A stretch of DNA of 9,214 bases. Source: an uncultured Bacilli bacterium. GTDB taxonomy: Bacteria > Bacillota_I > Bacilli_A > RF39 > UBA660. Position numbers and translations under genes: made by a program. Location: contig CALVIQ010000080.1 in assembly GCA_944331815.1 (NCBI GenBank), positions 1 to 9,214 on the forward strand, in the 5' to 3' direction. Shown here one piece after another: positions 1-9,214 of this stretch. The notes beneath the pieces were generated by a model, which was given only the letters and a program-made list of their open reading frames with translations, did no database searches and was not told the DNA's origin. Position 1 is the stretch's first letter. Each line of letters starts with the position of its first letter.

Positions 1-30
1 TCTAAATTTATAGGCTTTATATATTTTCAT
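1..30 (-). CDS. tnpB: Probable TnpB (IS200/IS605-type OrfB), N-terminal ten codons only
   Basis: An ATG at 30-28 opens a frame reading MKIYKAYKFR before the window ends. 'KAYKFR' right at the N-terminus is the usual opening of TnpB/OrfB proteins of IS200/IS605 and related elements, the RNA-guided nucleases ancestral to Cas12. A strong Shine-Dalgarno AAGGTGGTGAT (44-34) and a separate promoter precede it, and the previous gene rsmD ends in its own terminator, so this is an independent transcription unit. No tnpA lies upstream within the window, so it would be a tnpB-only element or have a different layout. Ten residues are thin evidence: the start is well supported, the family is a recognition from one short motif. 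Confidence 0.55.
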   Translation of the reverse strand, partial: MKIYKAYKFR

Positions 31-43
31 TTTATCACCACCT

Positions 44-59
44 TGATAAAATTTTATCA
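44..59. repeat. 16-bp perfect palindrome over the tnpB -10 and start point
   Basis: TGATAAAATTTTATCA is a perfect palindrome that covers the proposed -10 box (56-51) and ends at the Shine-Dalgarno of the tnpB-like gene. A looser inverted repeat lies just upstream (arms 61-70 and 79-88, 8 of 10 paired, 8-base loop) and contains the -35. They could be an operator or the hairpin-rich left end of the element; the sequence does not decide. Confidence 0.4.
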
Positions 60-79
60 CACATACATATGTTTGTCAA
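51..79 (-). promoter_or_regulatory. SigA-type promoter of the tnpB-like gene
   Basis: On the minus strand TTGACA (79-74), a 17-base spacer and TAAAAT (56-51). The predicted start near 44 coincides with the beginning of the Shine-Dalgarno, leaving a leader of about 14 nt. Confidence 0.6.
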
Positions 80-120
80 TGTATATGTTTTAAAAATTAC
101 AAAGCACTTTCCTAGTATAT

Positions 121-147
121 AAAAAAAATTGTAAATCCTTACAATTT
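121..147 (-). terminator. Rho-independent terminator of rsmD
   Basis: Minus-strand stem AAATTGTAA / TTACAATTT (9 bp) with loop GGAT runs into a series of eight Ts (128-121). The rsmD stop codon lies in the 5' arm. Confidence 0.8.
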
Positions 148-658
148 ATTTCAAAATAATAACTTTTTTACTACCATATTTTTTTTCTTTAATTATTTGA
201 TAATTTGTTTTAAATTCTTCTTCTATTTCACATACTATAATACCATTTTCATTTAACAAATCATATATTTTTATTTTATCTAATACTTTATTCATTAAAT
301 TATCATGATATGGAGGATCTAATAAAATAACATCAAATTTTATATTAAAATCTTTTAAAGCTTCAAAACAATCTTTTTTAATAATAACTTTATTATCAAT
401 ACCAATAGTATTTTTTTTAATTGTCTCGATAGCTATTTTATTGTTATCAACAAAATAACATATTTTTGCACCATTACTTAAAGCTTCAATGCCTAAACTA
501 CCACTACCAGCAAATAAATCTAGTACTACTTTGTCTTTTAAATTATTTTGAATCATTGCAAACATTGATTCTTTTACTCTATCCATAGTTGGCCTAGTAC
601 CGTTTATGTTAAAACCTTCTAATATTCTTCCTTTATATTTACCACTTATTACTCGCAT
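146..658 (-). CDS. rsmD: 16S rRNA (guanine966-N2)-methyltransferase RsmD
   Basis: RsmD methylates N2 of G966 in helix 31 of 16S rRNA, using S-adenosylmethionine, during 30S assembly. The 170-residue protein has the usual family length. Visible landmarks are the N-terminal MRVISGKYKG and TRPT (21-24) followed by VKESMF (28-33), the SAM-binding motif I DLFAGSGSLG (47-56), and the catalytic DPPY (114-117) typical of N2-guanine and N6-adenine methyltransferases. AGAGGATT (668-661) lies just upstream of the ATG. The gene begins only 14 bases after the tig terminator T-run, too close for a promoter of its own, so it must be transcribed by read-through of that terminator or from a promoter inside tig. 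In many Firmicutes rsmD is next to coaD; here a tnpB-like gene follows instead. Identification is firm. Confidence 0.95.
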   Translation of the reverse strand: MRVISGKYKGRILEGFNINGTRPTMDRVKESMFAMIQNNLKDKVVLDLFAGSGSLGIEALSNGAKICYFVDNNKIAIETIKKNTIGIDNKVIIKKDCFEALKDFNIKFDVILLDPPYHDNLMNKVLDKIKIYDLLNENGIIVCEIEEEFKTNYQIIKEKKYGSKKVIILK

Positions 659-671
659 ATAATCCTCTACT

Positions 672-697
672 AAAAAAGTTCTATTTTTTTAGAACTT
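672..697 (-). terminator. Terminator of tig, immediately before the rsmD ribosome site
   Basis: Minus-strand stem AAGTTCTA / TAGAACTT (8 bp), six-base A loop, then a T-run 677-672. The tig stop codon TAG (683-681) is inside the stem. Being A/T-rich and short it may be leaky, which rsmD expression would require. Confidence 0.7.
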
Positions 698-1916
698 CTA
701 TAGCTTGACGCATTTTTAAATCGTATTTAACCATTTCTAAACCACCAAATAATTTTAAGAATTCATCTTTATCCATTTGATATTTAGTAGCTAAAGTAGT
801 TGCTTCAGTTTCAGCTTGTTCATCTGTTACTTCAATATTTTCTTTATTAGCAATTTCTTCTAACATTAAACGATATGTAACACGATTAGTTGCTTCTTCT
901 TTCATTTGATCTCTTAATGCTTGTTCATCACTATTTGTAAATTGATAGAACATTTCTAAAGTAATTCCTTGCATTTTTAAATTTTCTTCATATTGTTTAA
1001 TAATGCGATCAATTTCTTCATTAATCATTACTTCAGGAATATCGATTTTTGTATTTTTAGCAGCTTTTTCTAGTAATTCATCAATATATTTATTATCGGC
1101 TTCTGCTTCTTTTCTTGCTTTAATATTTTCTTCTAATTGTTTTTCTAAAGCTTCTTTAGAATCAATTCCTTCCATACCTAAATCTTCAAAGAAATCTTTA
1201 TCTAATTCTGGTAATTTTTGTTCTTTAATTTCTTTTACTTTTACTTTAAATACAACTGGTTGTCCTTTTAATTCTTCAGCATGATAATCTTCTGGGAAAG
1301 TTACATTAATATCTTTTTCTTCACCTTTTTCCATACCGATTACTTGATCTTCAAAACCTGGAATAAATGTGTTACTTCCAATTTTTAATGAATAATCTTC
1401 ACCTTTTCCACCATCAAATGCTACACCATCTTTAAATCCTTCAAAATCGATAACAGCAATATCGCCATGTTCTACTTTACCTTCTTTATCGATGTTTTCA
1501 ATATATCTTTCTTGCATTTGTTTTAAAGCTTCACTTACTTCTTTTTTAGTAACTTTTACTTCTTCTTTTTTAACACCTAAACCAGTATATTTACCTAATT
1601 TTACAATTGGCTTCAATGTTAAATTGAATTTAAATTCTACATATTCATCAGTAACTGCTGAAACATTTACTTCTGGTTGAGCAACGATAACGTCATCACC
1701 ATTTTTTTCTAACATTAATTCATATGCTTTATTTAAACTATTTTCTGCAGCTTCCATATAAATACTAGTCATACCATATTTTTTAACATACATTTCTTTT
1801 GGTGCTTTACCTGGTCTAAATCCATCAATCTTAGCATCTTTATTTAATTTTTTAAATGCTTTATCCATTGCTTTTTGCCATTCTTCACCATCAATTTTAA
1901 TAATAACTTCTTTCAT
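681..1916 (-). CDS. tig: Trigger factor, ribosome-associated chaperone and FKBP-type prolyl isomerase
   Basis: Trigger factor binds the ribosomal exit tunnel at L23 and shields nascent chains. The ribosome-binding signature GFRPGKAP (residues 32-39) is intact. A central FKBP-like peptidyl-prolyl isomerase domain spans about 146-240 (from GDIAVIDFEGF through the GQPVVFKVKVKEIKE strand), and the rest is the long helical, charge-rich substrate-holding domain. At 411 residues it is slightly shorter than usual; alignment by eye suggests the first strand of the N-terminal domain is shortened by roughly 10-15 residues. The start is nevertheless well fixed by a perfect AAGGAGGAT (1929-1921) and a promoter 22 nt further upstream. 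It is a single-gene unit, with a terminator at its end, that may partly read into rsmD. Confidence 0.96.
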   Translation of the reverse strand: MKEVIIKIDGEEWQKAMDKAFKKLNKDAKIDGFRPGKAPKEMYVKKYGMTSIYMEAAENSLNKAYELMLEKNGDDVIVAQPEVNVSAVTDEYVEFKFNLTLKPIVKLGKYTGLGVKKEEVKVTKKEVSEALKQMQERYIENIDKEGKVEHGDIAVIDFEGFKDGVAFDGGKGEDYSLKIGSNTFIPGFEDQVIGMEKGEEKDINVTFPEDYHAEELKGQPVVFKVKVKEIKEQKLPELDKDFFEDLGMEGIDSKEALEKQLEENIKARKEAEADNKYIDELLEKAAKNTKIDIPEVMINEEIDRIIKQYEENLKMQGITLEMFYQFTNSDEQALRDQMKEEATNRVTYRLMLEEIANKENIEVTDEQAETEATTLATKYQMDKDEFLKLFGGLEMVKYDLKMRQAIEVLKK

Positions 1917-1944
1917 TATAATCCTCCTTCAAATTACATTTAAT

Positions 1945-1973
1945 AGTATATAATATTTATGTTTTATTTTCAA
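1945..1973 (-). promoter_or_regulatory. SigA-type promoter of tig
   Basis: TTGAAA (1973-1968), 17-base spacer, TATACT (1950-1945) on the minus strand; predicted start near 1938, about 22 nt before the ATG. The 14 bases ending in the -10 (AAATATTATATACT) are identical in the spoVG promoter. Confidence 0.75.
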
Positions 1974-1983
1974 GTAAAATTTT

Positions 1984-2005
1984 AAAAAAACATCTATTAA
2001 GATGT
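1984..2005 (-). terminator. Terminator of greA
   Basis: Stem ACATCT / AGATGT with loop TAAT followed by seven Ts (1990-1984, the first one paired), starting five bases after the greA stop codon. It separates greA from the tig promoter. Confidence 0.75.
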
Positions 2006-2009
2006 AATT

Positions 2010-2474
2010 TTAAAATATTTCAACAATTTTAACATTATAAGTTCCATTAGGACTTTCAACTGCAACAACATCGTTAACTTTAGCTCCTAATATAGCTTTA
2101 GCTATAGGAGATTCATTAGAAATTTTATTTTCAAATGGATCAGCTTCTGTACTTCCAACAATTGAATAAGTTTCAACATCACCATCTTCAACATATTCTA
2201 ATTTAACACTATTTCCGATAGTTACTTTATCAGTTGCTACTTCATCAATAATTTTAGCCTTTTCAATTAAAACTTCTAATTCTTTAATTCTATTTTCAGT
2301 AATTGCTTGGTCATTTCTAGCAGCATCATATTCAGCATTTTCTGATAAATCACCTAAAGCTCTTGCTTCTTTTAAAGCATTGATAACTTCCGGTCTTTTT
2401 TCATTAATTAGAAAATCTAATTCATTTTTCATATCTTCTAAACCTTTAGCAGTTACATAAACTTCATTTGTCAT
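2010..2474 (-). CDS. greA: Transcription elongation factor GreA
   Basis: GreA inserts its coiled coil into the secondary channel of RNA polymerase and stimulates cleavage of backtracked transcripts. The N-terminal coiled coil covers about residues 8-75 and carries the tip motif GDLSENAEY, whose Asp and Glu are the catalytic acidic residues; the C-terminal FKBP-like domain carries NESPIAKAILG. A GTG at 2483 would give 157 residues, but it lies inside the Shine-Dalgarno; ATG at 2474, eight bases after GAGG (2486-2483), is the better start and gives 154 residues, close to the family norm. The gene has its own promoter overlapping the end of trhP2, and with no terminator between them it can also be transcribed from trhP1-trhP2. 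In Bacillus subtilis greA lies near the trhP1/trhP2 (yrrN-yrrO) pair too, with udk in between; udk is absent here. Confidence 0.96.
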   Translation of the reverse strand: MTNEVYVTAKGLEDMKNELDFLINEKRPEVINALKEARALGDLSENAEYDAARNDQAITENRIKELEVLIEKAKIIDEVATDKVTIGNSVKLEYVEDGDVETYSIVGSTEADPFENKISNESPIAKAILGAKVNDVVAVESPNGTYNVKIVEIF

Positions 2475-2482
2475 TTTATTCA

Positions 2483-2486
2483 CCTC
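2483..2486 (-). promoter_or_regulatory. Ribosome binding site that fixes the greA start
   Basis: GAGG within AGAGGTGA, eight bases before the ATG at 2474. The in-frame GTG at 2483-2481 overlaps this site and cannot be its start. Confidence 0.75.
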
Positions 2487-2502
2487 TTTTTAAGCCTACA
2501 AA

Positions 2503-2531
2503 ATAATACTATATTTTTTTTCATTTGTCAA
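2503..2531 (-). promoter_or_regulatory. SigA-type promoter of greA, overlapping the 3' end of trhP2
   Basis: TTGACA (2531-2526), 17-base spacer, TATTAT (2508-2503). The perfect -35 box is made from the last codons of trhP2. Predicted start near 2496, leader about 22 nt. Confidence 0.75.
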
Positions 2532-3708
2532 CCTTAATTCGCATTAAATCATTTTTATTTAATTCAAAATCAGTTTCTAAGTAAACAATTTGTTTTGGAT
2601 GTCTTACAATTTCAATCAAATTGTTGTTTTCATCATAAATTTCATTTACCTGATAAGTATTTATTTTATCTGGACCAAAAAATTCAACTATATCACCTTT
2701 CTTAAAATAGTTTCTTTGTTCTATAGTAGCAATTTTAGTATCTTTATTATAGTCTAATACCACACCTAAAAAATCTTGATTAGATATTTCAATTCTATCA
2801 TTATAATAACTACAATTTGCACCATAATTACCATCAAAAAATTGGACGATACTATCTCTATTTGCCACTCTAGATAGTATATTCTCATAATCAAAATTGT
2901 ATACATATTTTTTATTATAATAATCATCTATTGCTTTTCGATAAATATTTACAACTGTTGCAATATAATAAATTGATCTCATTCTACCTTCTATTTTTAA
3001 AGATGTAACACCCATATCACATATTTCATTTATATGTTTTAACATTGATAAATCCTTTGAACAAAAAGTAAAATTTTTATCTCCCTTAATTATATTTTTA
3101 TTTTCATCTAACAAATTAAAATCCCAACGACATATTTGACTACATCCACCACGATTAGCATCTCTATTAGTTAAATAATTAGATAATACACATCTACCAC
3201 TATAACTTGCACACATAGCTCCATGAATAAATATTTCAACTTCTAATCCTACTTTTTTTATAATTTCAATATCTTCTTTATTAGTTTCTCTACCTAATAC
3301 TACTCTAGTTACACCTAAATCTTTTAAATATTCTACTGCTTCATAATTTAAAGTTGACTGTTGTGTTGAGATATGTACATCTAAATTAGTATATTTTTTA
3401 GCTAAATCTAATACTGTTAAATCACTAACTATAATAGCATCTACTTTTATTTTCTCTAATTGTTTTAAATAATCGATTAAAAATTTAATTTCTTTATTAT
3501 GTAATATTATATTAACAGTAACATAAACTTTTTTATTTAGATTATGAGCAAATTCTACGCCTTCTTTTAATTCTTCCATAGTAAAATTAATTGCATTAGC
3601 TCTTAATCCAAATAATTGACCACCTAAATATACTGCGTCTGCCCCATATAATAAAGCAAATTTTAATCTTTCTAAATCACCAGCTGGTGCTAAAATTTCT
3701 GGTTTCAT
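2521..3708 (-). CDS. trhP2: U32 family protein TrhP2/YrrO-like, tRNA U34 5-hydroxylation
   Basis: U32 'peptidase' proteins of this branch (TrhP/YegQ in E. coli, TrhP1-TrhP2 in B. subtilis) are needed for prephenate-dependent formation of 5-hydroxyuridine at wobble position 34 of tRNAs; proteolysis is not their main established role here. The N-terminal PEILAPAGDLERLKFAL and GADAVYLGG begin the TIM-barrel-like domain. The U32 signature follows: EIFIHGAMCASYSGRCVLS with Cys166 and Cys173, then GGCSQICRW with Cys189 and Cys193, the four cysteines expected to hold an iron-sulfur cluster. LKIEGRMRS (237-245) is also typical, and residues from about 312 form the beta-rich C-terminal domain. At 395 residues it is near full length. 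Its ATG directly follows the trhP1 stop (TAAATG), with AAGGTGA (3720-3714) inside the end of trhP1, so the pair is translationally coupled. Confidence 0.88.
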   Translation of the reverse strand: MKPEILAPAGDLERLKFALLYGADAVYLGGQLFGLRANAINFTMEELKEGVEFAHNLNKKVYVTVNIILHNKEIKFLIDYLKQLEKIKVDAIIVSDLTVLDLAKKYTNLDVHISTQQSTLNYEAVEYLKDLGVTRVVLGRETNKEDIEIIKKVGLEVEIFIHGAMCASYSGRCVLSNYLTNRDANRGGCSQICRWDFNLLDENKNIIKGDKNFTFCSKDLSMLKHINEICDMGVTSLKIEGRMRSIYYIATVVNIYRKAIDDYYNKKYVYNFDYENILSRVANRDSIVQFFDGNYGANCSYYNDRIEISNQDFLGVVLDYNKDTKIATIEQRNYFKKGDIVEFFGPDKINTYQVNEIYDENNNLIEIVRHPKQIVYLETDFELNKNDLMRIKVDK

Positions 3709-4530
3709 TTATTTCACCTTATAAACTGTTTCATTATAGAAAAAGCCCTTTCCCAAATTACTAAATAAATTATTTAACTTAATATCTAATTGTTCAACAT
3801 TATCATTATTTACTTCATTAAATATATCTAATACCTTACTAAATTTATCATCATCAATTAAAAAACTATTTAAAACAATATAATCATAATCTAATAATAA
3901 TTTTTCTTTTAAACCGTTTAAAATAAAATCAGTATAAACAATGGTTTCAGTATCATCTATTAAAGGATAAATATGATTTTCTTTTTCCATATAATTTATT
4001 TTAGAATCATCTTTCAAATTAAATGTTTTCAAATAATTTTTAACTAAATGTCTTCTTGATACAAACATAGGTAAATAACCAAATAAAGTAACCATTAATT
4101 TTGCATTAGTATTCTCTTTAATTTCTTTCATTTCTCTTAAAGTTATATCATTAGATACCCAAGTATATTTAATATTTTTATCATACCAAAAATTAATCGT
4201 GTTATAATTTGTTGTCATATGTTCTTGACTCCATACCAAATCATAATTTAAATTTAATTTTTTAGCCAAATTAGGTATACTTAAATCATAAAATATAACA
4301 CCTTTAATATTGTAATCATTTAATTTAATTAATGTTTCTTTTAAATAATTTATATCACTATTATGCATATTTTTATTTAAGCAAACAAATATTTCTTTAT
4401 CAATATTTTTTAAATCATTTAATTCAAAATAAGCAGGCATATTAACGCTTAATCCTTTAATACCTATAATAATCCCATCACATTTTAAATTAATTTGATT
4501 TAAATTAGAAATCATAATTAAAGTTTTCAT
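3709..4530 (-). CDS. trhP1: Divergent U32 family protein TrhP1/YrrN-like, partner of TrhP2
   Basis: A 273-residue protein recognised as the shorter YrrN-type U32 member by GYLPMFVSRRHLVKNY (151-166), the SQEHMTTNYNTINF segment (101-114) and its position immediately before trhP2. It has only two cysteines (17 and 50) and none of the four cluster cysteines of TrhP2, so it probably works as a non-cluster subunit or tRNA-binding partner in the same U34 hydroxylation pathway; that role is inference. A GTG at 4539 is in frame, but it lies in the Shine-Dalgarno GGTGAT (4540-4535), and ATG at 4530 four bases later is the better start. It leads the operon trhP1-trhP2-(greA). Divergence from the B. subtilis protein looks large, so the family call rests on motif plus synteny. 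Confidence 0.75.
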   Translation of the reverse strand: MKTLIMISNLNQINLKCDGIIIGIKGLSVNMPAYFELNDLKNIDKEIFVCLNKNMHNSDINYLKETLIKLNDYNIKGVIFYDLSIPNLAKKLNLNYDLVWSQEHMTTNYNTINFWYDKNIKYTWVSNDITLREMKEIKENTNAKLMVTLFGYLPMFVSRRHLVKNYLKTFNLKDDSKINYMEKENHIYPLIDDTETIVYTDFILNGLKEKLLLDYDYIVLNSFLIDDDKFSKVLDIFNEVNNDNVEQLDIKLNNLFSNLGKGFFYNETVYKVK

Positions 4531-4546
4531 AAAAATCACCGCTAAT

Positions 4547-4555
4547 ATTATATCA
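4547..4555 (-). promoter_or_regulatory. Extended -10 promoter of trhP1-trhP2
   Basis: TGATATAAT (4555-4547) is a perfect TGnTATAAT extended -10. No good -35 is seen; that position is occupied by the preceding terminator. The predicted start near 4540 falls on the Shine-Dalgarno, leaving about 10 nt of leader. Confidence 0.65.
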
Positions 4556-4563
4556 CAATTTAG

Positions 4564-4590
4564 AAAAAAAGCATTTATTTATTAAACGCT
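4564..4590 (-). terminator. Terminator of the MTERF-like operon
   Basis: Stem AGCGTTTA / TAAATGCT (8 bp including one G-U), loop ATAAA, then seven Ts (4570-4564). The stop codon at 4577-4575 is in the 3' arm. Confidence 0.8.
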
Positions 4591-5837
4591 TCTTGTCCCA
4601 TTATTTTGTTTTTTAATTCATTATATTTTTTTCTAGTCATTCCAAATATTGAATTAAATTTTCCTCTTTCATCTACCATATTAATCCCTTGCATGTCTAA
4701 TATACTTTTTCTTTCTTGTATTTCTTCTAATTTAAGAGTTAAAATAGAAGCACTATTTATTACAATTGGTAAAACATTTAATTGTTGTAAATAAGGAAAA
4801 ACTTGCATTAAATATTTAACACTTTTATTAATTATCAATGGTTTCAAATATTCTTGACCATAATTGTTTTTTATATATTCAATACTATTAGTTAAATCTT
4901 TTGATTTTTTTAAAAATATGCCACCTGTTATTTCTATATTATTTCTTTTACATACTTCGATTATCTTTTCTATTTCTTCTGCATTTTGTATAAATAAACT
5001 GCCGGTTATTTCTATGTTATTTCTTTTACATGCTTCAATTATCTTTTCTATTTCTTCTGCTGATTGTCTAAATAAACTGCCGGTTATTTCTATATTATTG
5101 CTACGACATACTTCAATTATCTTTTCGATTTCTTCTGCTGATTGTCTAAATATACTACCAATTATTTCTATATTATTTCTTTTACATGCTTCAATTACCT
5201 TTTCTATTTCTTCTGCTGATTTCATAAATAAACTGCCAGTTATTTCTATGTTATTTCTTTTACATACCTCAATTATTTTTTCGATTTCTTCGGCTGATTG
5301 TTTAAATACACTGCCACTTATTTCTATGTTATTTCTTTTACATACTTCAATTATCTTTTCGATTTCTTCAGTTGATTGTCTACTAACGGCTGCTGATAAA
5401 TTTATCATTTTATTATTTTGATCAATATTTAGTAATTCTATTTCTTTAATTCTTGATTTTTGAACTCTCAAGATTGATGTTATTTTATTCAATGAATCAA
5501 CACCATAATTTTCTATTACATATTCATAAGTTTGTTTTAGATCATATGGATTTGTACTTAAAACATGTAAACATGTTTCTACACTAGAAAATTTTATTTC
5601 TCTTGCTTGTAAAAATGTTACATTTTCTTTTATAGCATCTACATTTAAATACATTATACTTGGACATTTTTCTATATTATAAGATCCTACTTCTAATTCG
5701 TTTATTAAATAATTTAATGTTTTGTCAATTGCTACATATTCTCCATATTCCAATATATTACTATTTTTTTTAATAACTTTACTTGCATCTATTTTATATT
5801 TTTTTAATAAATCAGTTAACAAATATTGTCCTATCAC
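4575..5837 (-). CDS. Uncharacterised MTERF-like helical-repeat protein with six near-identical 26-residue repeats
   Basis: No assigned function. The 420-residue protein appears to be one long run of helical repeats. Residues 153-308 are six tandem 26-residue units of the type GSLFRQSAEEIEKIIEVC plus KRNNIEIT. The diverged N-terminal part contains PSIMYLNVDAIKENVTFL (59-76) and the C-terminal part ASILTLKLEEIQERKSIL (from 363); all three align without gaps and resemble the MTERF motif (Pro-x-Leu/Ile-Leu, then an amphipathic helix ending in Phe/Leu-Leu). MTERF proteins are nucleic-acid-binding solenoids of organelles, so a nucleic-acid or protein-binding role is possible but inferred. No signal peptide or membrane segment is seen. 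The start is GTG at 5837, seven bases after GGGAGG (5850-5845) and overlapping the previous stop as GTGA; an in-frame ATG at 5852 lacks a ribosome site. Confidence in the gene is high, in the fold moderate. Confidence 0.6.
   Translation of the reverse strand: MIGQYLLTDLLKKYKIDASKVIKKNSNILEYGEYVAIDKTLNYLINELEVGSYNIEKCPSIMYLNVDAIKENVTFLQAREIKFSSVETCLHVLSTNPYDLKQTYEYVIENYGVDSLNKITSILRVQKSRIKEIELLNIDQNNKMINLSAAVSRQSTEEIEKIIEVCKRNNIEISGSVFKQSAEEIEKIIEVCKRNNIEITGSLFMKSAEEIEKVIEACKRNNIEIIGSIFRQSAEEIEKIIEVCRSNNIEITGSLFRQSAEEIEKIIEACKRNNIEITGSLFIQNAEEIEKIIEVCKRNNIEITGGIFLKKSKDLTNSIEYIKNNYGQEYLKPLIINKSVKYLMQVFPYLQQLNVLPIVINSASILTLKLEEIQERKSILDMQGINMVDERGKFNSIFGMTRKKYNELKNKIMGQEAFNK
4914..5381 (-). repeat. 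Six in-frame tandem copies of a 78-bp repeat
   Basis: Units at 5381-5304, 5303-5226, 5225-5148, 5147-5070, 5069-4992 and 4991-4914, each encoding 26 residues. Units 4 and 5 differ at only 7 of 78 bases by direct comparison, pointing to recent duplication or gene conversion. The clearest protein differences are RS for KR in unit 4, MKS at the start of unit 3 and IQN at the start of unit 6. The copies abut with no spacers. Confidence 0.95.
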
Positions 5838-6106
5838 ATTAATTCCTCCCATAATTCCATATCATTATCTAACATATCAATATAATTAACTCCTATTTTT
5901 GATATTAATTTATCTACTTTATTTTTAAATTCTATTTTATCACATATAAAAATTAATGGATATCTTTCAAATACATCTTCTATATCATTTATTTTTAGAT
6001 ATTTCAAATATTTAATATTTTCTAATATATCATTTATATTATTTTTTATTTCATCTATTACCGAACTTCCATATATTTCTTCTATTTTTTCAAAATCTAT
6101 TTTCAT
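5834..6106 (-). CDS. Small uncharacterised MTERF-like protein, first gene of a two-gene operon
   Basis: A 90-residue, largely helical, charged protein of unknown function. Residues 50-67, PLIFICDKIEFKNKVDKL, align without gaps to PSIMYLNVDAIKENVTFL in the following gene and to the MTERF-type motif; the preceding LKYLKINDIEDVFERY looks like the helix pair that normally leads into such a Pro. It may be a single MTERF-like module or a subunit partnering the larger protein. It starts with ATG at 6106 after GGTGAT (6115-6110) and ends in TGA that overlaps the GTG of the next gene (GTGA), so the two are translationally coupled. The sequence AATTATGGGAGGAATTAATG near its end encodes its own C-terminus and supplies the next gene's ribosome site. 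An extended -10 promoter precedes it, directly after the spoVG terminator. Confidence 0.6.
   Translation of the reverse strand: MKIDFEKIEEIYGSSVIDEIKNNINDILENIKYLKYLKINDIEDVFERYPLIFICDKIEFKNKVDKLISKIGVNYIDMLDNDMELWEELM
5845..5850 (-). promoter_or_regulatory. Ribosome binding site that fixes the GTG start of the repeat gene
   Basis: GGGAGG lies seven bases before GTG at 5837 and downstream of the in-frame ATG at 5852, so translation should begin at the GTG. Confidence 0.75.
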
Positions 6107-6121
6107 AATATCACCACATTA

Positions 6122-6130
6122 ATTATATCA
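6122..6130 (-). promoter_or_regulatory. Extended -10 promoter of the MTERF-like operon
   Basis: TGATATAAT (6130-6122), identical to the trhP1 element. The -35 position holds only CTGAAT (6150-6145), within the spoVG terminator. The predicted start near 6115 falls on the Shine-Dalgarno, leader about 9 nt. Confidence 0.65.
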
Positions 6131-6131
6131 T

Positions 6132-6157
6132 AAAAAAAATGCTTATTCAGCATTTTT
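6132..6157 (-). terminator. Terminator of spoVG
   Basis: Stem AAAAATGCT / AGCATTTTT (9 bp) with loop GAATA, then a T-run to 6132. The TAA stop (6145-6143) lies at the loop and 3' arm. The T-run ends one base before the next promoter. Confidence 0.8.
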
Positions 6158-6400
6158 GTAAGCTTCTAATATTTTATCTTGGAACATCTTACGAGTTTCT
6201 TGGTTAATTGGATGAGCTATGTCACGATATTCCCCATTTGCTTTTTGACGGCTAGGCATAGCAATGAATAAACCATCATTACCTTCGATAATTCTAATAT
6301 CATGAATTGCAAAACAATCATCAATTAGAACAGATGCTTTCCCTCTCATTCTTGAATTTTCTTTTTCTTCTTTACGAACTGTAACTGATGTAATTTCCAT
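6143..6400 (-). CDS. spoVG: SpoVG, nucleic-acid-binding regulator of sporulation and division
   Basis: SpoVG is a small conserved protein, first found through a stage V sporulation defect in Bacillus and shown in several bacteria to bind DNA and RNA and to affect septation and cell-surface genes. The whole family core is visible in 85 residues: MEITSVTVRK, then KASVLIDDCFAIHDIRIIEG (21-40), the loop GLFIAMPSR (43-51) and RDIAHPIN (59-66). It is about ten residues shorter than the Bacillus protein, lacking the variable C-terminal tail. The ribosome site is AGAGG (6412-6408) within AGGGAGAGG. It has its own promoter and terminator, so it is a single-gene unit downstream of yabG-veg, although read-through from veg is possible. 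Confidence 0.96.
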   Translation of the reverse strand: MEITSVTVRKEEKENSRMRGKASVLIDDCFAIHDIRIIEGNDGLFIAMPSRQKANGEYRDIAHPINQETRKMFQDKILEAYKNAE

Positions 6401-6432
6401 TTAAAAACCTCTCCCTTCAGTATTACATTTTA

Positions 6433-6461
6433 AGTATATAATATTTTTAATAAAATTGCAA
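6433..6461 (-). promoter_or_regulatory. SigA-type promoter of spoVG
   Basis: TTGCAA (6461-6456), 17-base spacer, TATACT (6438-6433); predicted start near 6426, leader about 26 nt. In Bacillus spoVG uses SigH; the SigH pattern was not evident here. Confidence 0.7.
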
Positions 6462-6480
6462 GTGTTAATAATCAATTTTA
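6451..6480. repeat. Inverted repeat across the end of veg and the spoVG -35
   Basis: TAAAATTG (6451-6458) and CAATTTTA (6473-6480) are perfect 8-bp arms separated by 14 bases. The left arm includes half of the spoVG -35 and the right arm is in the last codons of veg. It may be a weak veg terminator or an operator, or be chance in A/T-rich DNA. Confidence 0.3.
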
Positions 6481-6674
6481 ATAGTTTTAGTTATTACATC
6501 TGTATAAGTAAATGATTTTTTGGAGTTATTATTTAATTCAACTAAAAAAACATTTTCATATAATTCTTTAATGGTCACTTTATATTTTTCATATTTATTC
6601 CTACCCAAATTATATTTAATAGTTACTTCTTCACCAATATAATCATTTAATTTACCTCTAACTTGACCTATCAT
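6465..6674 (-). CDS. veg: Veg family protein
   Basis: Veg is a small, strongly expressed protein of Firmicutes; in B. subtilis it is linked to biofilm formation through the SinR pathway, but its biochemical role is not established. The 69 residues align along the family's length: IGQVRGKLNDYIGEEVTIK, NLGRNKYEKY, then ENVFLVEL and the C-terminal SFTYTDVITKTIKI, matching the Bacillus pattern of VFVIQL and SYSYADILTETVEL. The variable C-terminal tail is missing. Its ATG overlaps the yabG stop as ATGA and no strong ribosome site is seen, so it is translated by coupling to yabG. In Bacillus veg also follows yabG but is known for a strong promoter of its own; none is obvious here. Confidence 0.92.
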   Translation of the reverse strand: MIGQVRGKLNDYIGEEVTIKYNLGRNKYEKYKVTIKELYENVFLVELNNNSKKSFTYTDVITKTIKIDY

Positions 6675-7450
6675 CTTGGATACCCCGTATACATTGTTCC
6701 TTTTGTAATAACCCCACCTATTCCATTTTTACCATACTTAGTATTTTCTATTATATCTTTTAAATCAATATCTTTTCTAACATCAGATAAACTCATTTTG
6801 GTAGCTATTATAGCTGGATCTAGAGCATGAATATTAACTCTTTTAGGAGAAGAAGCAAAATTAGCACCAGCTTTTATTAATTCTTCATAATCAGATTGAC
6901 AAGCACCAGCAATTATGATTAATTTATCATGACTTTTTTCAAATTTTCTAGCTTCTTTAATAGCTTTAACAAAATTATTACTATTTTTATAAGCACTTAT
7001 ATTATTTTGACTACCTTTTTTCTTATAATAAGCATCATGCCCAGTTATTACAATTATATTAGGATTATATTCTTCTAACCATTCTTTAATATATAATGGA
7101 ACATTTTCTTCTGTTTCATTTATTCCTTTTGCCCAAATATTGGCTTCTTTATAATAATCTAAACATCTATTTAAATAATCTAAGTCACTATCAATATGTA
7201 ATATTTTACCAGGAATATAAAAATAATCATCTCTATTTAAATCTATATTAGGTTTAATTCTTTCTTCAAATTGTTTATTTTCTTCATCAACACTTTCAAA
7301 TTTAACTAAATCATCCTTAAAACTATCAGCTACTAATCTAAGATTAACACCTTTTAAATAATATACATTATCAACTATATCAGTTATTTTAAACACTGTA
7401 TCGTGGTTGTAAGATTTTCTAGTAACTAAATCACCTATGTCAAAATTCAT
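6671..7450 (-). CDS. yabG: YabG, sporulation-specific cysteine protease
   Basis: YabG processes spore coat and cortex-associated proteins, acting in the mother cell. The 259-residue protein shows the family landmarks in order: GDLVTRKSYNHDTVFKI near the N-terminus, LKGVNLRLVADS, ILHIDSDLDYL, the block with VITGHDAYYKK (His138), IIIAGACQSDYEELIKAGAN with Cys184, SSPKRVNIHALDP, and GIGGVITKGTMYTGYPR at the C-terminus. His138 and Cys184 are the natural catalytic candidates. It is a little shorter than the roughly 290-residue Bacillus protein. A TTG at 7462 is in frame, but ATG at 7450 directly after GGGTGAT (7459-7453) is the better start. A promoter with SigE/SigK-like features precedes it, and veg overlaps its end. 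Its presence suggests the organism makes, or recently made, spores. Confidence 0.95.
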   Translation of the reverse strand: MNFDIGDLVTRKSYNHDTVFKITDIVDNVYYLKGVNLRLVADSFKDDLVKFESVDEENKQFEERIKPNIDLNRDDYFYIPGKILHIDSDLDYLNRCLDYYKEANIWAKGINETEENVPLYIKEWLEEYNPNIIVITGHDAYYKKKGSQNNISAYKNSNNFVKAIKEARKFEKSHDKLIIIAGACQSDYEELIKAGANFASSPKRVNIHALDPAIIATKMSLSDVRKDIDLKDIIENTKYGKNGIGGVITKGTMYTGYPR

Positions 7451-7465
7451 ATAATCACCCAACTA

Positions 7466-7494
7466 ATTATATGAAATATTGTTAATAAATATGA
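7466..7494 (-). promoter_or_regulatory. Mother-cell (SigE/SigK-like) promoter of yabG
   Basis: TCATATT (7494-7488), 14-base spacer, CATATAAT (7473-7466). This fits the SigE pattern KMATATT-N14-CATACAMT with one mismatch. A SigA reading is also possible (TATAAT at 7471-7466 with a poor -35). The predicted start near 7459 leaves a leader of about 9 nt. Confidence 0.55.
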
Positions 7495-7523
7495 AAGAAA
7501 TAAGGACTTAATCCTTATTTCTT
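7495..7523 (-). terminator. Hairpin at the end of the Hint-domain gene
   Basis: Perfect 12-bp stem (7495-7506 with 7512-7523) and five-base loop holding most of the TAA stop codon (7510-7508). The U-rich part lies in the 3' arm and the following bases are TCAT, so the usual T-run is weak. The base of the stem touches the yabG -35. Confidence 0.6.
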
Positions 7524-9214
7524 ATATCATCTTGTTCTAATCTTTTTATATATCCAAATATGTCTTTATCTAATGCAATATTATTCTTAGTAATATCTAA
7601 ATCTTGTTCTTTTAATCGTAATCCGTCAATCCATTTTTTTGAAATTCCAATTAATTCTTTATCTTCATTTAAATTCTTCTTAACTTTTTTAAATTTCATA
7701 TTTTCAATTTCATAAATATTATTAAATCTACAAGAAGTTAAAATATTATTTGTAAATAAATTAATGTGATAATTGGCGATAACATTACAATAATCAATAT
7801 TTTCATAAACTACTTTCTTTTCAACTAATGTTATTTCTTCACCTTTAGAATTAAATGTTGTTGTTCCAATCGGTGTATCATCAGTCATTGGATAAGTAAA
7901 CTTTCCTTTTTCTTTATTAAATATTCTGTGTTGATTAATTGTCTTCAAAACAGATCCATCACTAAATTTTAATAAATTATATTGATCAATCGTTTTTTGT
8001 TTCATAATCCATAATGGTTTAGCATAAGTAAATTTTCCAGCATCAAAATTCCAAACTAATACTAGATCATCATAAGTTAAATATTTTATTTTTTTTCTCT
8101 TTCTTTTTTTCTTCTTTTTATCATAAACAATAACTTCACTATCTGAACTTACACATGATACCCACATTAATCCTTTATACCAAGGAGTTGGATTGTAATC
8201 TTCATTTGTAAATTGAATATAAACAGTTCTATAACCTATTGCACCAGAACTTTCTTTTTGAATTAAATATTTTAATTTATTATTTTCATAAAATATATTA
8301 TATATTGTTGAAACTGAATTCAATGTTAAATTATAGTTTAAATCTTTTAATTTATAATAAACAATCTCGCTACATAAATTACTTAAATTACAATTATAAA
8401 CATTAACACCCTCGTATTCATCAAATAATTTCAAATCAATTTCGCCAACTATTTCTTCTCTTATTAAATCAACACTGGAAAATATTTCATACAATTTATT
8501 TGAATCAAAAGAATAAGGCAATGGTTGTTTTATTTGAATTAATCTTCTTTTAGTAATACAATTATTATGGCCATCACATGCTTTATATTCAATTATTTTA
8601 TCGGTCGGTAATCTATCAAATCCTCTTGTTTCAACATTTATTGTTTCTCCACTATTATCAATTACTGATACGCCTTCTAATAAATTAAATGACTCTAATT
8701 CACTACTAGATAATTTAGTATTGTCTGGAACAATTAAATCTGGTGGTGTTGTATCTCTTACAACTACTGTTCTTGTAATTTTTGATGTATATCCATTACT
8801 AGTAGCACTATAAATTACAGTATATGTACTATATTTAGTTACATCGATACTTCCTATTTCACTACCGTTTTCTTGATATGTTATATTTAACTCTACTTCA
8901 CTACCATCTTTTGATATTGCTTTTGTTCCTTTTTCTTCATATGAACTATTTATTTCTACATATTCAATATAATTGCCTTTCAATATAATAGTTGGTGCAT
9001 TTTCATTATATTCATTACTTAAATCAGTACCACTATTACCATCTACGTATATTTCATAATTATTATTTTTATAAGTTATGGTTATTACCATATCATTAGG
9101 TAATAATTCTCCTGTTTTTGGATTTCTACTATCTATTGCAACATATCCTGATTTTTTTAGTTCTAATAACGTAACAGTTATAGATTCATTTTCATTAACA
9201 GGTAACATATTCAA
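7508..9214 (-). CDS. C-terminal part of a surface protein: pilin-like segment, Ig-like domains and a Hint domain
   Basis: The N-terminus lies beyond the window; 568 residues are visible. Residues about 11-58 (TVTLLELKKSGYVAIDSRNPKTGELLPND) resemble the C-terminal half of prepilin-type surface proteins. Residues 74-153 look like a DUF5011-type Ig-like domain, followed by TTPPDL and a second one to about 228. Residues 229-350 are unassigned, with cysteine pairs at 213/219 and 275/281. From Cys354 to about Cys495 there is a Hint domain: the nucleophile-type Cys after WVS, SDSEV, an LTYDDLVLVWNFDAGKFTYA strand region, the block-B-like FSDGSVLKTINQHRIF (417-432), and YCNVIANYHINLFTNNILTSC at the end, where canonical inteins have HN before the junction. 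A ten-residue basic run (366-375) interrupts the start of the domain. A 70-residue tail follows. Secretion and self-cleavage are inferred. TTG at 9214 is only the first codon visible. Confidence 0.6.
   Translation of the reverse strand: MNMLPVNENESITVTLLELKKSGYVAIDSRNPKTGELLPNDMVITITYKNNNYEIYVDGNSGTDLSNEYNENAPTIILKGNYIEYVEINSSYEEKGTKAISKDGSEVELNITYQENGSEIGSIDVTKYSTYTVIYSATSNGYTSKITRTVVVRDTTPPDLIVPDNTKLSSSELESFNLLEGVSVIDNSGETINVETRGFDRLPTDKIIEYKACDGHNNCITKRRLIQIKQPLPYSFDSNKLYEIFSSVDLIREEIVGEIDLKLFDEYEGVNVYNCNLSNLCSEIVYYKLKDLNYNLTLNSVSTIYNIFYENNKLKYLIQKESSGAIGYRTVYIQFTNEDYNPTPWYKGLMWVSCVSSDSEVIVYDKKKKKRKRKKIKYLTYDDLVLVWNFDAGKFTYAKPLWIMKQKTIDQYNLLKFSDGSVLKTINQHRIFNKEKGKFTYPMTDDTPIGTTTFNSKGEEITLVEKKVVYENIDYCNVIANYHINLFTNNILTSCRFNNIYEIENMKFKKVKKNLNEDKELIGISKKWIDGLRLKEQDLDITKNNIALDKDIFGYIKRLEQDDIRNKD

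Follow-up and report, generated by a model that had tools for sequence, protein, structure and literature searches.

In a 9,214-nucleotide stretch of DNA from an uncultured Bacilli bacterium of the RF39 lineage (contig CALVIQ010000080.1, positions 1 to 9,214; hereafter the window), two overlapping genes on the minus strand encode a 90-residue protein, P90, and a 420-residue tandem-repeat protein, REP. Our main observation is that each repeat module of REP and its homologues is nearly invariant except for one residue, which the predicted structure places at the loop between two helices, where the specificity residues of transcription activator-like (TAL) effectors and TALE-like proteins also sit. 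We consider it somewhat better than an even chance (probability about 0.57) that the pair encodes an accessory, sequence-specific and retargetable DNA-binding system of the kind represented by the pTERF proteins, which are compared with REP below.

The two open reading frames (ORFs) are found where an earlier note on this DNA had described a two-gene operon. P90, the first gene of the pair and the MTERF-like partner, occupies positions 5834 to 6106, and REP occupies 4575 to 5837. The overlap given in the same note is present in the sequence: the stop codon of P90 and the GTG start codon of REP share the letters GTGA at 5834-5837. Counted from this GTG, REP has 420 residues, whereas a mechanical ORF finder begins at an upstream ATG and gives 425; the residue corresponding to the GTG also starts the listed homologues, as judged by eye. 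All parts of REP are given here in minus-strand coordinates. An N-terminal MTERF-like flank (5397 to 5837), recognized from Pfam mTERF matches in relatives and from its helix order, is followed by six 26-residue modules (4926 to 5393), the first of which is divergent in that S replaces a conserved F. A C-terminal helical cap (4575 to 4925) completes the protein; it is conserved in the REP family, and its helices begin at residue 310 (425-residue numbering) in the AlphaFold2 model. Tandem Repeats Finder reports the array as a 78-bp repeat at 4927-5379 (5.8 copies, score 668). The variable codon of each module, named with the residue pair that it opens, lies at 5379 to 5381 (R, pair RQ) in module 1, 5301 to 5303 (K, pair KQ) in module 2, 5223 to 5225 (M, pair MK) in module 3, 5145 to 5147 (R, pair RQ) in module 4, 5067 to 5069 (R, pair RQ) in module 5 and 4989 to 4991 (I, pair IQ) in module 6.

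Homologues of REP are plentiful, with 701 of 8,000 scored candidates at E<=0.001, and the modules of 120 listed homologues were counted in two ways. A typed pattern found units in 94 proteins, 505 module copies in all (296 distinct), and none in the other 26. In this count, position 5 of the module carries 3.2 bits and a within-protein mismatch of 0.83; no other position varies as much in 59 of 75 proteins, and in six more it shares first place. Because the pattern fixed or narrowed positions 4, 9, 10, 11, 14, 15, 17, 18 and 23, near-invariance at these positions is partly built in, and therefore the count was redone with a profile built from one half of the proteins and used to find modules in the other. 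The profile, itself trained on pattern-picked units, recovered 661 modules from 118 of the 120 proteins. Position 5 again leads, at 3.17 bits and a mismatch of 0.82, with position 2 as the runner-up (0.55). Among the 104 proteins with four or more modules, 71 have position 5 as their single most variable position, and in a further 19 it is tied for first. By comparison, F4 is present in 659 and C18 in 660 of the 661 modules.

The residues at position 5 are rich in L, K, Y, R and M; N, H, Q, S, F, I and C also occur, and T or V only seldom. At position 6, 646 of the 661 modules have K, R or Q. Neither position is acidic in any module. By contrast, positions 16 and 20 vary too and are acidic in 66% and 44% of cases; acidic residues are also absent at other conserved positions and at variable position 2. 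The pattern extends to the DNA level. Among 851 within-gene module pairs (picked by a pattern and including both of the identical arrays L024 and L025), codon 5 differs nonsynonymously in 80%, with 1.62 changed bases, followed by codon 2 (64%) and codon 20 (54%).

Between arrays at related loci, the same codon changed more than the average of the others in all six comparisons. Codon 5 changed in 3 of 7 modules between L181 and L182 (6% of other codons), 3 of 6 between the window and L022 (20%), 11 of 13 between L021 and L022 (13%) and 8 of 12 between L034 and L035 (27%). The two L029 arrays, each compared with L033, show changes in 9 of 12 modules (25%) and 7 of 14 (29%). These comparisons exclude codon 6, and pairing relied on module similarity outside codons 5 and 6, a choice that favors the contrast. 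The strongest of the six pairs is L021/L022 (Fisher test, 4e-8), whose N-terminal flanks are 95% identical. Module number varies as well, and some relatives have more than 11 units.

The AlphaFold2 model of REP (predicted local distance difference test score, pLDDT, 89.4) is a predicted helical solenoid in which each 26-residue module forms two helices. In one module, a helix at residues 206-210 is followed by a loop and a second helix at 213-225; position 5 therefore forms the end of the first helix, with position 6 in the loop. When this model was searched with Foldseek, the first 38 ranks comprised 35 TAL effectors or the TALE-like protein BurrH and three entries for human MTERF1. REP thus resembles TAL effectors and TALE-like proteins (dHax3, AvrBs3 and BurrH) in its top fold matches, in its two-helix modules with a variable inter-helix loop residue in the predicted model, in its nearly invariant scaffold and in its variable module number. 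It differs from them in having modules of 26 rather than 33-35 residues, MTERF-like ends and a separate partner gene. No TALE was among the PDB sequence matches.

Several other matches to the repeat region were set aside. Pfam FAD_binding_4 is matched by 45 of 46 REP family members (best 3.6e-17), and GHMP_kinases_C, Ribosomal_S10 and others also appear; these were rejected as artefacts of repeat composition because they cover pieces of the repeats and contradict one another. We read PDB matches to designed helical repeats (best 4.9e-5) in the same way, as well as PADLOC matches (best 0.0011 for the window REP; Cas2 at 1.5e-6 and SduA at 5.1e-6 for L030).

The P90 gene is a regular companion of REP. 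A search for the same pair in related genomes, as the earlier note had proposed, revealed a P90-like gene on the same strand and no more than 120 bp away in 24 of the 30 REP genes with 350 bp or more on either side. Genes close to a contig end and the duplicate L180 are omitted from this count, which includes close siblings, two L173 genes with one P90 and loci whose P90 helped to build the model. The P90-like gene precedes or follows REP, and 13 of the 24 overlap it, given the start codons chosen by the script. The six REP genes that lack an adjacent P90 are those of L032, L033, L071, L075, L174 and the first copy in L173; in L075 a P90 gene lies further on and the array ORF is interrupted, and the L173 copy belongs to a tandem cluster. 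Tandem REP genes flank or precede a single P90 gene in L029 (3380-7440) and L173 (1235-8105), where one P90 may serve two arrays. In L028 (55-567), a release-factor-like stretch lies in frame upstream of the P90 ORF and may reflect an insertion or a chimeric assembly; a Pfam PCRF match (7e-8) in one P90 family member is taken to be this locus.

The earlier note had assigned both proteins to the MTERF type on the basis of an 18-residue pattern said to align without gaps, and this pattern did not hold up. Three of its four strings are present, and the fourth, GSLFRQSAEEIEKIIEVC, is absent from the protein and blends two repeats. In ungapped BLOSUM62 comparison with the P90 string, the other three strings score 11, 0 and -1; the -1 belongs to the absent one. 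The best ungapped 18-mer shared by P90 and the N-terminal flank of REP lies in a different register and is equalled by 25 of 300 shuffles, and that shared with the C-terminal flank is equalled by 203 of 300. On its own, the motif is not clearly above chance and is no evidence as such.

Kinship with MTERF is nonetheless likely for P90 and the REP N terminus, as judged from Pfam profiles and the fit of the P90 model to MTERF4. The P90 model (pLDDT 94.2) has the long-short-short helix order of MTERF repeats (PF02536) and matches the MTERF4 structure, and the same order is predicted in the flanks of REP. Pfam mTERF is matched weakly by 14 of 19 P90 family members, and 2 of 10 REP N termini pass its cut-off (L034, 28.6 bits; L029, 24.7 bits). 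The window proteins themselves fall short, with P90 at 14.6 bits against a gathering cut-off of 23.1 and the REP N terminus without a match to this profile; the best PDB profile match of the N-terminal flank, MTERF3 at E 0.17, is not significant alone. Direct comparison of the P90 and REP profiles is weak (probability 10.6%, P 0.0029), and therefore their kinship rests on a shared likeness to MTERF. The central modules of REP depart from the MTERF type, being tandem and two-helix by prediction, with TAL effectors as their top fold matches ahead of MTERF1. The MTERF assignment is thus partly supported: it is likely for P90 and the N-terminal flank, and the array differs. MTERF proteins are not known to carry a variable residue in each repeat.

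The closest published counterparts are the pTERF proteins (Hu et al. 2024, PMC11417379; used here from part of its text), MTERF-like tandem-repeat proteins of 3-11 units from metagenome-assembled genomes (MAGs), mostly of Bacillota. As described there, pTERF1 comes from a ruminant-gut Clostridia MAG and binds the DNA sequence ACTNNNAGTC with a Kd (dissociation constant) of 1.87 nM, and pTERF2 recognizes a different DNA motif. REP resembles these proteins in its tandem repeats, of which it has six, its MAG source, its Bacillota-dominated relatives, its MTERF-like annotation and perhaps its predicted fold, and the two are probably the same family. The likeness drawn here is one of description, and the pTERF units are described as three-helix, whereas those of REP are two-helix by prediction. 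DNA binding with differing motifs is published for pTERF1 and pTERF2, and by analogy REP may share it. In the part of PMC11417379 available to us, the place given for repeat-variable diresidues in STAR proteins is that of positions 5 and 6 in our model. The same part names no hypervariable residue, partner gene, array turnover or other repeat classes in pTERF proteins. Among the titles and abstract openings listed in a literature search, there was no further account of the family, the varying position or the small partner.

Other repeat classes accompany the 26-residue type. Relatives that share the N-terminal flank or have a P90 neighbor carry repeats of 29, 30 or 32 residues (L072, 8230-10452; L074, 8308-9951; L075, 9381-10520; L173, 1235-8105; and L174-L177), usually with a P90-like gene alongside. 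The residue corresponding to position 5 is the most variable in five of seven such proteins (L072, L075, L173, L175 and L177) and near the top in L074 and L174; because the corresponding position was picked by eye, this result is descriptive only, the modules being pattern-picked and L176 left out. Glutamate occurs at this position in L072, L174 and L177. A C-terminal domain of about 300 residues is common to L175 (3540-4439), L176 (5953-6852) and L177 (6681-7580), and one protein search gave two homologues of it. Our reading of this domain by eye as sigma-factor-like was dropped, as Pfam and PDB searches gave it no support.

The pair is an accessory element. REP occurs in 6 of the 18 nearest-genus genomes (several of which are incomplete), 17 of 385 genomes of the order, 1 of 392 genomes of a phylum sample (a fragment already among the order matches) and 15 of 390 genomes of a family reached via a Clostridia MAG. 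Of 15 REP-related contigs, 14 are from Bacilli, Clostridia or Clostridiaceae and one is from Actinomycetes. In the window, the pair lies between spoVG and a U32-family gene, with the edges of this interval at 4540-4574 and 6107-6142. Only 32-51 bp separate these genes in G001, G005, G010 and G018. The same site holds a 284-residue ORF in G006, a 242-residue ORF in G008 and G013, both ORFs in G014 and the P90-REP pair in the window, G003 and G004; our script could not resolve G011 and G012. G005, whose site is empty, has a REP fragment elsewhere. These differing contents indicate a site of variable cargo and an accessory pair. In viral contigs, two peptide patterns gave 39 matches, none of them a confirmed relative, and phages and plasmids likewise yielded none. 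Three REP loci (L027, L029 and L033) derive from RGIG-numbered MAGs of roe deer, water buffalo and goat. We take RGIG to be the ruminant resource cited for pTERF1.

If the pair is a DNA-binding system, REP would wrap DNA as a helical solenoid with a cap at each end. Each 26-residue module would display position 5 at its inter-helix loop, next to a position 6 occupied by K, R or Q, and most likely read about one base with it. P90, made from the same coupled mRNA, would most likely bind REP and extend or cap the solenoid. The gain, loss or change of modules, together with changes in codon 5, could retarget the protein quickly. We infer that the pair acts at one DNA site, chromosomal or invading, as a repressor, a roadblock or some other local regulator.

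Other readings of the array must be weighed against this one. The array could read RNA instead, as an MTERF- or PPR-like protein that acts on one transcript or on rRNA. P90 and the flanks are of the MTERF type, MTERF proteins can act on RNA and PPR proteins do so, and a non-acidic loop would suit RNA equally well. The top fold matches of REP, however, are DNA readers, as are pTERF1 and pTERF2 (PMC11417379) if they belong to the same family, and we judge RNA recognition unlikely. It is also conceivable that the solenoid recognizes a protein or peptide and that the variable residue switches partners. Helical repeat proteins are often peptide binders, and a fold search based on shape is blind to the ligand. 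Yet none of the 661 modules is acidic at position 5 or 6, the nearest folds are TALE and MTERF1, and DNA binding is published for pTERF proteins (PMC11417379), again if the family is the same; this possibility therefore appears quite improbable.

We give equally little credence to a canonical MTERF-like factor for transcription termination or ribosome biogenesis in which repeat variation is incidental. The MTERF-like P90 and flanks would fit such a factor, as would the nearby genes for GreA and a U32 protein of the tRNA-modification type. However, arrays differ among siblings, and the patchy presence in 6 of 18 genomes (several incomplete), with differing neighbors elsewhere, makes a housekeeping role improbable. 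Least probable of all is neutral drift in a low-complexity tandem repeat, with position 5 merely its most tolerant surface position. Tandem repeats readily expand and contract, nonsynonymous change between related arrays affects 6 to 29% of the other codons too, and glutamate is sometimes present at the corresponding position in other repeat classes. Drift would nevertheless have to account for the exclusion of D and E from position 5 when variable positions 16 and 20 are so often acidic, for codon 5 exceeding the average of other codons in six of six array comparisons, and for the high variability of the corresponding position in most of the other-class proteins.

Returning to sequence-specific DNA binding, we searched for self-targets or a code by expectation-maximization with 17 arrays. 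The regions searched, in both orientations, were the 900 bp upstream alone or together with 400 bp downstream, shortened where a contig ended. No target or code was found by this search, which is weak, with few arrays, and covers local targets; the observed scores were equalled by 9, 14, 13 and 7 of 30 shuffles. A more ambitious proposal, which we advance tentatively and hold to be rather less probable than its failure, is that these loci embody a second natural code of one module per base. Such a code would use a 26-residue module, shorter than the 34 residues of TALE, a single residue at position 5 and the combination of REP with P90; it would have arisen from MTERF-type repeats, exist in several repeat classes with a common variable position and reside at a continually retargeted accessory locus, perhaps one in conflict with mobile DNA.

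The surroundings of the pair match those described in the earlier note, with the sporulation-side genes YabG, Veg and SpoVG upstream and two U32 proteins, GreA, the ORF at 681-1916 and RsmD downstream; by our reading, this ORF encodes a putative trigger factor. That note had also given the pair its own promoter and terminator. A putative extended -10 element, TATGATATAAT (6122 to 6132, minus strand; box TGA-TATAAT), lies 15 nt upstream of the P90 ATG, but a consensus scan of the window found no excess of promoter-like sites (79 found versus 86.1 expected from shuffles). Likewise, a weak terminator-like hairpin of six pairs with a T-run is visible by eye 3' of REP (4564 to 4589, minus strand), but it is missing from the scan output. 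At 7508-9214, the window encodes a surface protein whose C-terminal part resembles, by eye, a putative Hint/intein-type domain; for the counterpart of this protein in L023, the best match spans residues 1-229 only. In Clostridia loci, a hypothetical protein of 145-157 residues, with first residues alike by eye, recurs near REP (L171, 4098-4556; L172, 6881-7354; L033, 8306-8764; L032, 7464-7901).

If position 5 reads bases, then gut bacteria would possess a compact natural DNA-recognition code, and hundreds of natural homologues would be at hand for deciphering it. Such proteins would also be a possible bridge between the MTERF and TALE architectures. Furthermore, given the conserved neighbor P90, assays that used the repeat protein only may have covered just part of the system.
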